Assembly (NCBI GenBank): GCA_947476485.1
Contig: CANJQU010000033.1
Location: 1 to 38,291, forward strand
Source of the DNA: Chitinophagaceae bacterium
GTDB lineage: Bacteria; Bacteroidota; Bacteroidia; Chitinophagales; Chitinophagaceae
Reading direction: 5' to 3'
DNA length: 38,291 bases
Shown here: piece by piece, positions 8,706 through 12,251 of the stretch
Layout: every line of letters starts with the position of its first letter
Numbering within the stretch: the stretch's first letter is position 1
The notes under the pieces: generated by a model
Told to the model about the DNA's origin: nothing
What the model saw: the letters and a program-made list of their open reading frames with translations, nothing else
Database searches by the model: none
Made by a program: the position numbers and the translations under genes

Positions 8706-10250
8706 CTAGTCAAAAGTTACCCAGGCTACATGCGCCTCTTTAATACGGCCTTTACGCTCAATGATCACTGTTGCATAAGTGTTGGTACCATCGCAATAAT
8801 CGGTTCCATCCATGTAGCTGAAAACATTTGACTTATCATCTGGAGCCCCAAAAAATAAAAATTTATCAATCCCACTGCCGTTTAGTTTGTAACCTACTGT
8901 ATTCGTCAGCGATACTGTTGATATCTTTTTGTGCTTGGCTTCATCTTCGTCTTTATTGAAATTAGTTACATAGTCGTTGAACAACACAAAGTTTCCTTTC
9001 GGGGTGCTTATGTAGTCATAGGACATAAACTGCTCGTTATTCACGCCGTGAGACTCCTGCTGCAATTTTTCGATCGCATAACCGTTTACCTCGGCGCCTG
9101 TATCCGAGAGTACAGATACGCCAATATCTCCCCGATATGACTTACTTTCAATGCTTGAAGTTTTTTCCATTAACACAGATGTGGTCTTATCTTTATTGAT
9201 GACCATTTTATTCGGCAGTCCATTAAATTCATACTCTTTATCAATATGTTTTTGCCCGTATTCAGACACCTTTTGCCCAATCAAAGGCTTTATGTTTACT
9301 ATCTCAAGTGTCTCAGGATCAAAGTAGGTCATAAGTGATAAATAATAACGGGTTATCGTAGTTGACATTACCTTTTTCTTGGATTCAGAAAGTGATTTTG
9401 TCCTTAATTGCACCTGGTTGGAATTCCGGTTATATACCATCTGGGATGTTACATCGCTTAGGTCAACATTAAGCTCCATTGTTTTATTTGAAAATGTTTT
9501 TTCGCCGGCGTTTACTTTAGATATAATTACTTTGCATTCGCTGGTTAGCTGCATGCTTTGATTAAACTTAGGTTTTTCGGTATAGCCGCATAAGATCAGA
9601 AATATCCGCTTACCCCCATCAACCAGCATAGATTTATAATTGATAAACATAAAACCCGTGGGACCGCCTTTATATTCGGTTTCGTTGATTTTTTTATGAC
9701 TGCCATCGTAATGCATCACGGTCATCTTCTCCACGCCCATTCTCGATCTTCCACATGTGACCACCGCATAATGATCCGATTGGGGATCCTTACTCACATC
9801 CAGGGAACCAAACACTGTTGCAAATGTTTTTGGTTCACCAACAGTTGCCAGCGTTTCCTCATTTATGACTCCGCCATCCGATGGATTGAACCTGATACGC
9901 ACCAATGTGCGCTGCTGGTGGTCCTCAAGATTCAGGAACAGTACCGGCTCGCCATTTATTTCATAAAGCCATTTGTCGGATGCATCTGCAACATCCCACA
10001 ACTTACTGGTGACGCTCTTTGTAGCAACAACTTTCCTGTTCTTATCAAAAACCGAAATATCAACACTGCCCTTACTCCCAATATGAAACAAAAAGGTATT
10101 GCCGTTTTTAAGCTGAAGCAAATGATTCCAACCCGGGCCTGGTTCATCAAATGCATCACTCTTGGTAACATGGTATTCCTGCGCATTCAATACGCAGGCA
10201 GAAAACAGAAGGACTGTCAGCAATAGGGACAATTTACTCTTTGAGTTCAT
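8706..10250 (-). CDS. Secreted protein of unknown function
   Basis: A 514-residue protein from the ATG at 10250. A GTG at 10259 would add three residues, but a TATCTTGG box at 10270-10277 places transcription start too close to that GTG. A signal peptide (LSLLLTVLLFSACVLNAQ) ends in the NAQ-E cleavage pattern common in this phylum. A Cys lies inside it, but the lipobox fit is poor. The mature protein is hydrophilic and rich in beta-strand-like segments such as FLFHIGSKGSVDISVFDKN, reminiscent of a beta-propeller or WD-like surface protein. I recognise no family. The gene looks more AT-rich than its neighbours. It faces the permease gene, and fragments of the permease 3' end lie on both sides of it, suggesting the gene arrived as a cassette. 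Confidence 0.8.
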   Translation of the reverse strand: MNSKSKLSLLLTVLLFSACVLNAQEYHVTKSDAFDEPGPGWNHLLQLKNGNTFLFHIGSKGSVDISVFDKNRKVVATKSVTSKLWDVADASDKWLYEINGEPVLFLNLEDHQQRTLVRIRFNPSDGGVINEETLATVGEPKTFATVFGSLDVSKDPQSDHYAVVTCGRSRMGVEKMTVMHYDGSHKKINETEYKGGPTGFMFINYKSMLVDGGKRIFLILCGYTEKPKFNQSMQLTSECKVIISKVNAGEKTFSNKTMELNVDLSDVTSQMVYNRNSNQVQLRTKSLSESKKKVMSTTITRYYLSLMTYFDPETLEIVNIKPLIGQKVSEYGQKHIDKEYEFNGLPNKMVINKDKTTSVLMEKTSSIESKSYRGDIGVSVLSDTGAEVNGYAIEKLQQESHGVNNEQFMSYDYISTPKGNFVLFNDYVTNFNKDEDEAKHKKISTVSLTNTVGYKLNGSGIDKFLFFGAPDDKSNVFSYMDGTDYCDGTNTYATVIIERKGRIKEAHVAWVTFD

Positions 10251-10269
10251 AAGGATCACATATTTCTGG

Positions 10270-10641: not shown

Positions 10642-10842
10642 ATGGAAACATATAGAGTGATATTCGACAACAATAGCCCCATTCATGCACAGTTGATGGG
10701 TAAAAGTGAAAAGAGCGGCATCGGCGCCATAGCTCACAACGGTAAAAAGCAAATAAAGTGGCTGGCAGTAGATGCCTGCGACGAACAGGATAGCATTAGT
10801 GTTGCAAACGACATGATGCGATCACTCAAAAGATTTCTATAG
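10642..10842 (+). CDS. Small hypothetical protein
   Basis: A 66-residue reading frame opening METYRVIFDNNSPIHAQLMG. An upstream in-frame ATG at 10615 would add a hydrophobic MILLTSINI stretch, but the downstream ATG gives a more regular protein. The composition is that of a soluble alpha/beta protein, with no signal peptide, membrane segment or Cys pair. I recognise no family. It lies between the permease relic and the repeat array, with no partner gene. No clear -7 box was found, so it could be spurious. Confidence 0.45.
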   Translation: METYRVIFDNNSPIHAQLMGKSEKSGIGAIAHNGKKQIKWLAVDACDEQDSISVANDMMRSLKRFL

Positions 10843-11089
10843 CCGTTACTCCTCCCTGCAAATTGTAATAACCCGGGACATTGTAATTCAACATTTAAAC
10901 AACAGCAGTTCGCCAGCCACAAATAACTTAATAAATTTCCTCTTACCGCCCATAGAAATTTCGTCTTGTGCCGTATTCATAATTTGTGGATATTTGTGAT
11001 AGAAAATGTCGTTTTTCAAATCAACATCTCAGCTATCTATCGTGGTAGCGCGGTGACCCATCAAAAACTTAATTCCGAATTACTTGGCT

Positions 11090-11606
11090 ACTGCCAACTG
11101 CCAACTGCGAACTGGATGGGGCATAACGGGAAATTTAACTAAACTTAATATCAGCCACAGCAAAGGATTTCATCATATTACTATGCCCCATTTACCCCTT
11201 TTTTTTCGCAGCAATTTCGGGCATGGGCTTTTCTCCTGCAAGTGGCGACTGAAAACTGCCAACTGCAAACTGGATGGGGCATTATGTGAAATTTAATTAA
11301 ACTTAATATCAGCCACAGTAAAGTATTTCAACAGATTTCAATGTCCCATTTGTGAGTTTTTTTTACTGAGGCATGGGACATTTAAAAGTCAACCTACAAT
11401 TTCGGTAACTGAGTACTCAGGCACGTTGCCAACTGAGAACCGGATGGGGTACAATGGGAAATTTAGATAAAATCAATATCAGCCACAGAAAAGGATTTCA
11501 TCAAATTACTATACCTCATTTACCCATTTTTTTTCGCAGTAATTTGGGGCATCGGTTTTTCTTTCCTGCAACTGGCTACTGAAAACTGCGAAACTGGATG
11601 GGGGCA
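11090..11606. repeat. Array of three ~160-bp structured direct repeats plus a partial fourth
   Basis: Units begin at 11111, 11269, 11439 and (partial) 11593, with periods of 158, 170 and 154 bases. Each is led in by a period-7 run of ACTGNNN (for example 11090-11110, 11248-11268). Each unit has, in order, an ACTGGATGGGG left arm, a conserved AATATCAGCCACAG segment, a right arm and exactly eight Ts. The arms pair in all three units: ATGGGGCATA/TATGCCCCAT (11116-11125, 11182-11191), ATGGGGCATT/AATGTCCCAT with one G-U (11274-11283, 11340-11349) and ATGGGGTA/TACCTCAT with a C-G to U-A change and a G-U (11444-11451, 11512-11519). The T8 runs are at 11199-11206, 11357-11364 and 11527-11534. No gene lies in 10843-11699; the part before 11090 shows nothing clear. 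Confidence 0.85.
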
Positions 11607-11699
11607 TTAGCATCACCATTCACTGCAACGGCCAAATGAAAACTCGGGTACTATTTCAAAACTATATCATGGCATATTTTTTATACTCTATCTTTTACT

Positions 11700-12251
11700 A
11701 TGGACATACAACGGGTTTCCAATACGATACAAGAGGCGCTAAATGCCCAGATGACCAGGGAAGCGCATGCTGCGCAGATCTATCTTTCTTATGCTGCCTG
11801 GGCCGCCGACAATGGATTTGACGGCGTTGCCAATTTCCTCTTCCGTCATGCAGGCGAGGAGCGCAACCATATGATGAAGATTCTGGAATATGTTTTGCAA
11901 CGGAACGGTAAGGTAAAAGTGACCGCTATCCCCGCCCCCGATGCCGATCCTAAAAACCTGAACGACTGCTTTGAAAAAGTGCTGAAGTCGGAAATTGAGA
12001 ACACGGAAGAAATATACAAGCTGGTGAGCATGAGCATGGCCGAAAAAGACTGGGCCACATGGAACTTCATGCAATGGTTTGTAAAAGAGCAGATCGAAGA
12101 AGAAACACTGGCGCTGAACCTGCTCGCAAAAATGAAGATAGCGGGCGGCGAAAACGCTAAGGGAGATGCGCTATATGCTATAGACCGCGACCTTGCCAAT
12201 GCCCCGGATGATGCAAGGTCTGCAGAGGATGTCACAACCGCAGATCCATGA
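11700..12251 (+). CDS. ftnA: Ferritin (bacterial non-haem, ferroxidase type)
   Basis: A 183-residue four-helix-bundle ferritin that oxidises Fe(II) and stores iron in a 24-subunit cytoplasmic shell. Ferroxidase residues are visible: Glu21 and Tyr28 in helix A (REAHAAQIYLSY) and the ExxH pair Glu54/His57 in helix B (GEERNHMMK). Helix C carries SEIENTEEIY and helix D the QxxEE of VKEQIEEET. About 15-20 residues beyond the usual FtnA end are acidic and disordered-looking. The ATG at 11700 starts the normal N-terminus. A near-match -7 box TATCTTTT lies just upstream, and upstream of that is the structured-repeat array, which could be part of a long leader. No Fur-box-like palindrome was recognised. 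Confidence 0.95.
   Translation: MDIQRVSNTIQEALNAQMTREAHAAQIYLSYAAWAADNGFDGVANFLFRHAGEERNHMMKILEYVLQRNGKVKVTAIPAPDADPKNLNDCFEKVLKSEIENTEEIYKLVSMSMAEKDWATWNFMQWFVKEQIEEETLALNLLAKMKIAGGENAKGDALYAIDRDLANAPDDARSAEDVTTADP

Follow-up and report, generated by a model that had tools for sequence, protein, structure and literature searches.

The three units that stand head to tail upstream of the ferritin gene in the window (the whole 38,291-nucleotide stretch analysed, contig 33 of the 215 in the 4.58-Mb, 99% complete genome G000) probably belong to a dispersed, non-coding, intergenic family of palindrome-ended repeats of one genus, similar to REP, BIME and MITE elements, that has spread by copying in trans and has grown locally through tandem duplication. 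In this reading the arms of the unit, as iterons or in the form of a palindrome, would be recognised by a trans-acting protein that binds or processes DNA and that would have placed copies of master sequences in further intergenic sites. The array of the window, and others like it, would then have grown by tandem duplication of the unit plus its linker, and any effect on ferritin would be incidental.

Anatomy of the array and of the unit

The array is real: it consists of three units of approximately 117 nt, spanning 11114-11558, plus a left-arm stub (Table 1). Mechanical repeat detection recovers 136-nt copies at 11099, 11257 and 11427, with spacings of 158 and 170, and also finds a separate linker repeat (family D2). 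The initial annotation described three full units sharing a left arm, a core, a right arm and exactly eight Ts, followed by a partial fourth. For the three units all of these positions are confirmed, and a fourth is indeed present, but reduced to its left arm. The run of eight Ts holds for every unit of the window but is no rule of the family, other copies having interrupted or A-rich runs. The core, AATATCAGCCACAG, occurs exactly three times in the window, and two further matches with three mismatches are at chance level. As the linkers of the array are alike, and not only its units, the tandem step appears to be the unit plus linker, i.e. tandem duplication.

Table 1. Positions of the array, its parts and the adjacent reading frames in the window
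Feature	Position	Strand	Left arm	Core	Right arm	T8	Third arm	Remark
517-aa ORF	8706-10259	-						upstream of array; no Pfam match
66-aa ORF	10642-10839	+						between 517-aa ORF and array; no Pfam match
Unit A	11114-11230	+	11116-11124	11147-11160	11183-11191	11199-11206	11216-11224	model match 1-118; second iteron 11126-11134
Linker A-B	11231-11271	+						ACTGCCA-like heptamers
Unit B	11272-11387	+	11274-11282	11305-11318	11341-11349	11357-11364	11373-11381
Unit C	11442-11558	+	11444-11452	11475-11488	11511-11519	11527-11534	11544-11552
Linker after unit C	11559-11592							85% like 11229-11262
Stub of fourth unit	11590-11608	+	11598-11607					left arm only, ATGGGGGCAT
Ferritin (PF00210)	11700-12251	+						neighbour gene, outside the repeat

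Linkers built of heptamer-like sequence (ACTGCCA/ACTGCAA) are seen in the window at 11090-11115, 11231-11271 and 11559-11592, and precede many units of the family. At other places the linker is a AAATCCTG/AAATCATA-like run that ends in GGTTCAGAC; the same left arm is thus entered from two linker types.

Removal of short matches and near-duplicates from 226 unique match sequences left 206 for alignment (57, 23, 93 and 33), from which four types emerge: the window type, a long type, the G026/G019 type and the G003/G023 type. The unit begins with a 9-nt G-rich arm (about WTGGGRYAW) and a second, shorter iteron usually ~10 bp on, which is TGGGAAAT in most types; then follow a subfamily-specific core of ~47-72 nt, an inverse arm, ~23-27 nt that are usually T-rich, and a third arm. 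Read from the consensuses, the left iterons are spaced 10-11 bp, about one helical turn. The window type has the form ATGGGGYAT-AATGGGAAAT-(about 12)-TTAATATCAGCCACAGCAAAGGNTTTCA-ATGCCCCAT-T-rich-ATGGGRCAT, and its ends are direct repeats of one arm with the inverse arm inside. The long type (~142 nt), carried by G000 and G013, often has an extra inverse arm outside the left arm, so that both ends carry a palindrome. The arms of the G026/G019 type (~111 nt) are ATGGGATAA/TTATCCCAT/ATGGGATAA, and the G003/G023 type is marked by additional iterons on the left and by TTGCCCCAT. A further core type is found in G001 and G020. After several units in G003 and G023 (L097, L099 and L211) there stands a further palindrome, TTGTCCCAGCGGGACAAC or a near variant, and then (C)GGTTTGTAG or a near variant; with its GTAG it looks like a separate, tagged REP.

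The arms vary jointly from one subfamily to the next, as in ATGGGGTAY/ATGCCCCAT/ATGGGRCAT versus ATGGGATAA/TTATCCCAT/ATGGGATAA, with the exception of the third arm of the G003/G023 type (ATGGGGCAT), which does not follow the arm change. That the arms differ together suggests a common trans-acting recogniser, and the pattern, joint change of the arms from subfamily to subfamily beside drift of single copies, could be used to find a protein that reads them. A bolder and tentative form of this idea, possible rather than likely, is that the arms of this genus-restricted repeat are the sites at which an undescribed DNA-processing system recognises a hairpin-ended element, copies it and sets the copies head to tail, arms and enzyme evolving together within each lineage.

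Dispersal in the genome and distribution in the genus

A genome-wide search for the unit, proposed in the initial annotation, finds the repeat dispersed well beyond the ferritin locus, in keeping with the 'DNA repeat' that the annotation had listed among its options. In a BLAST search a single unit matches 44 times in its own genome at E<=1. A covariance model (R1) built on 26 own-genome copies (alignment A1) gives 72 matches at E<=0.1 and 61 at E<=0.01, counts that include the training copies and rest on rough E-values. The 72 matches correspond to 45 places in the 4.58-Mb genome, 16 of which hold two or more non-overlapping units. All 26 non-overlapping neighbour pairs lie on the same strand, i.e. 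head to tail, one pair having been left out because its two members overlap as a single palindrome matched on both strands. Start-to-start distances within the pairs are 158-433 nt, and 158-232 nt in 19 of the 26. Several places or arrays are found at contig ends of the assembly, so the repeat may break assemblies. Many identical dispersed copies, or the lack of a transcript together with a lack of significant covariation, had been named in advance as refuting the initial reading. This largely holds, in that copies are dispersed and covariation is marginal at most, but the copies are diverged, not identical.

With R1, 12 of 35 genomes of the genus, that of the window included, carry the repeat at E<=0.01. 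As lower bounds, with 104 candidates scored per genome, there are at least 102 matches in G026, 61 in G000, 45 in G019, 42 in G003, 28 in G013, 21 in G023, 12 in G001, 8 in G006, 6 each in G005 and G020, 4 in G033 and 3 in G004. A pattern for the right palindrome matches in 11 of the 35 genomes, and in none of the 35 when read backwards. The constant interior of ~23-27 nt is seen in seven of the 11 (G000, G001, G003, G004, G005, G013 and G020), and G029, G006, G024 and G022 have one or two matches of another shape.

Among 195 genomes of the family, searched with stricter filters, a match was obtained in the own genome and in one other (E 3.4e-4) only, and a stricter palindrome pattern run on 396 genomes of the order, a sample with no other member of the genus, matched in the own genome only (the backward control gave one match). 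In a contig search a first pattern matched no stretches; a looser core pattern matched 35, all in the uncultured Bacteroidetes bacterium MAGs AM_bin-0098 and Umea2p3_bin-0931. On a tree of the OmpH gene from 30 of the 35 genus genomes (33 matched, 30 loci returned) the carriers are clustered, although they do not form one clade: five changes are needed, at least four of them forced by well supported branches, and shuffles need 9.6 on average, with 1 of 500 as low as five. The repeat family is that of one Bacteroidota genus, with lineage-specific subfamilies.

Mobility and comparison with known repeats

Transposition is suggested by two observations, the dispersal and the subfamily structure. 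In a permuted-flank test no convincing target-site duplication was found; the best excess is a 2-base match (13 of 55 versus 3.1), among ~29,000 offset/length choices per type. An autonomous parent, sought as a left and a right half, unpaired, that frame 150-3500 nt, was found at none of 382 loci. An initial list of split halves suffered from the palindromic nature of the right half, and systematic pairing was used in its place. No mobilising gene was identified.

The repeat could be a classical MITE or REPIN moved by transposases of a known family that the genome encodes, with Y1 (HUH) transposases as first candidates, a reading that we consider doubtful. It is short, non-coding and multi-copy with palindromic ends, and a strong PF01797 match (E<=1e-14) is found in all 12 carriers versus 14 of 23 non-carriers (hypergeometric 0.012, uncorrected for kinship). 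However, PF01797 matches occur in 33 of the 35 genus genomes, carriers or not, and of 47 stretches around such matches 43 have no copy at E<=0.01, four hold one, and in none does the match directly flank a copy. The adjacency was sought by family, by model R1, by regular expression and by four profile HMMs; R1 alone falls below E 0.1 in 2 of the 47. The four cases are a long-type copy 0.9 kb from the PF01797 match in G004 C65 (L176, E 8e-22), a palindrome only (E 0.002) at 1.0 kb in G013 C10 (L167), and copies at 2.3 kb in G000 C26 (L193) and at about 2.5-2.6 kb in G020 C44 (L205). A transposase tree was uninformative, the motif having caught only 9 of 27 loci. The association with Y1 transposases is weak, a lead and not a link.

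REP, BIME and REPIN sequences are RAYT-linked palindromes of 20-40 bp tagged at one end with GTAG or CGTC, and BIME units alternate in orientation. The present repeat is like them in being dispersed, intergenic, palindromic, multi-copy and uneven between species, and in forming clusters with reiterated flanking DNA. Unlike REPs, it has arms at both ends of a unit of ~111-143 nt with a conserved core, and no RAYT was seen directly flanking it; on reading the four subfamily consensuses, no GTAG or CGTC tag is found beside the arms. Unlike BIMEs, its neighbouring units do not alternate (26 of 26 non-overlapping pairs on the same strand), which, like the lack of such a tag and of a convincing target-site duplication, argues against a MITE or REPIN of the classical kind. 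Head-tail dimers are described as absent or rare in most REP families (PMC3733652).

The repeat is MITE-like in falling within 50-1000 bp and in being non-coding and multi-copy. BOX elements of Streptococcus pneumoniae are also modular intergenic repeats able to form stem-loops, and appear to differ from it in sequence and modules. Porphyromonas gingivalis, host of the BrickBuilt MITEs, is likewise a member of the Bacteroidota. BrickBuilt elements are intergenic, with 19 copies in one strain, and have 23-nt tandem direct repeats between leader and tail and terminal inverted repeats that resemble the ends of IS5-family elements (PMC4596501). They share with the present family the combination of a MITE-like intergenic element with tandem direct repeats, and differ in that here the whole unit is in tandem and no IS-like ends were found. 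A literature search judged by titles and abstract openings returned no published description of the family.

Neighbouring genes and pairing of the arms

Each of the six downstream genes tested is of a different kind: ferritin, OmpH, S1/P1 nuclease, fumarase, IMPDH and a RecQ-like helicase. Ferritin itself matches at 24 loci in 23 of the 35 genus genomes, and at the 23 loci other than that of the window (in 22 genomes) there is no convincing copy, the best having E 0.055; some of these loci are truncated where the contig stops, and in six the likeness is no more than 42-43%. This makes a conserved leader of ferritin unlikely, and the copies that stand beside other genes likewise lend no support to the multi-step leader that the initial annotation had among its options. 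The ferritin array is among the copies absent from the relatives seen; a clean empty site was not found at ferritin, where the upstream gene differs between species.

Other copies are shared. The OmpH gene is preceded by three units in G000, by one in G001 and by a weaker one of another type in G005, and the remaining 27 of 30 OmpH loci have no convincing copy (best E 0.026). A place at the S1/P1-nuclease gene is common to G000 and G004, with flanks that can be aligned on both sides. Since the copies ahead of OmpH (three species) and of the S1/P1-nuclease gene (two) occupy equivalent positions, some appear to be old and inherited over species divergence. Just downstream of the repeats at L231, L233 and L235, and upstream of the OmpH gene of the three species, lies a highly conserved promoter-like region (TTATGACAACTTTATGAA ... 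TAGATATTACTTTTG). The same region precedes OmpH in G020 and G004, where it has no repeats.

In G000 the window type occupies 27 places; the gene next to the third arm is co-directional in 18 of them, convergent in four and not callable in five. This 18:4 bias (two-sided binomial p 0.004, noticed after the fact) is not expected of a neutral repeat and speaks against our main reading. It would fit a promoter-proximal regulatory or insulating element, the units being putative protein-binding sites through which transcription of the gene that follows, ferritin included, is set or shielded, and so would the helical-turn spacing of the left iterons and the position of units just upstream of DNA that is conserved across species and precedes the genes for OmpH and the S1/P1 nuclease. 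We nevertheless find such an element unlikely. Co-directional and convergent genes number 8:8 in G013, 4:8 in G020 and 3:3 in G004 (35 units at 34 of the 40 loci retrieved; one unit had no callable gene), and 9:14 for units of the G026/G019 type with a callable gene. The bias to precede genes is limited to one subfamily and is not general. The variety of downstream genes and the lack of a convincing copy at 27 of 30 OmpH loci and all 23 other ferritin loci also count against a regulatory role.

The left/right arm pairs of units A, B and C are ATGGGGCAT/ATGCCCCAT, ATGGGGCAT/ATGTCCCAT and ATGGGGTAC/ATACCTCAT. They pair in all three units as the initial annotation had it, with one C-A mismatch in unit C. 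The alternative pairings it gave, ATGCCC 11183-11188 with GGGCAT 11219-11224 and 11340-11349 with 11373-11382, also read correctly. The changes from which selection on structure had been argued, to G-U and from C-G to U-A, exist, but the argument itself finds no support: in alignment A1 the named pairs are 91.1% paired versus 91.0% with shuffled partners (215 of 500 shuffles as high), and show one double change. RNAalifold on A1 keeps only four pairs, none with a compensatory change.

Larger sets of 54, 23, 92 and 32 copies (window, long, G026 and G003 types), in which one arm was shuffled among copies, give left-right pairing p values of 0.11, 0.022, 0.97 and 0.63, respectively, with wobble counted, and right-third values of 0.37, 0.86, 0.007 and 0.98. 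Left-right pairing is thus above shuffles in the long type alone, and marginally; covariation beyond shuffled arms is absent except marginally in two of these eight tests, neither of them on the window type. The two lowest values become 0.054 and 0.034 without wobble, five such copies from one array (L103) match the five double changes behind the 0.007, and with sixteen pairing tests in all, low p values are weak. Pairing seems to belong to the consensus of a subfamily and not to be kept up in individual copies. Arms that pair within a local array can derive from the consensus of a dispersed repeat, and arms inherited in this way are no evidence of a riboswitch-like leader.

The sense of the left-right wobble differs between types. 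In the window type G-T exceeds A-C (66 versus 19), as would be expected of an RNA read from the + sense, whereas in the G026/G019 type it is reversed (16 versus 42), and a flip between subfamilies contradicts a single RNA strand. A simple scan found no terminator-like site, and Rfam has no family at gathering score in the window; a permissive RNA-family search of 11000-11700 matched only a microRNA model (E 0.17, 21 bits versus a cut-off of 72). A multi-copy small RNA or a repeated attenuator in a ferritin leader, as first proposed, is therefore very improbable: arm pairing and the + sense wobble excess of the window type speak for it, and against it stand the absence of covariation above shuffles in that type, the reversed wobble, the lack of an Rfam family and of a terminator-like site, relatives' ferritin loci without a convincing copy, and ordinary + strand folding.

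For units A, B and C the folding z-scores are 0.61, -0.52 and -1.51 on the + strand and -1.18, -1.62 and -2.61 on the - strand, where one unit folds better than usual, and two further window-type copies have 0.47 and -0.43. Four copies of other types, folded in the sense of the element, have z-scores of -1.74, -2.16, -1.66 and -0.84, which go against our reading.
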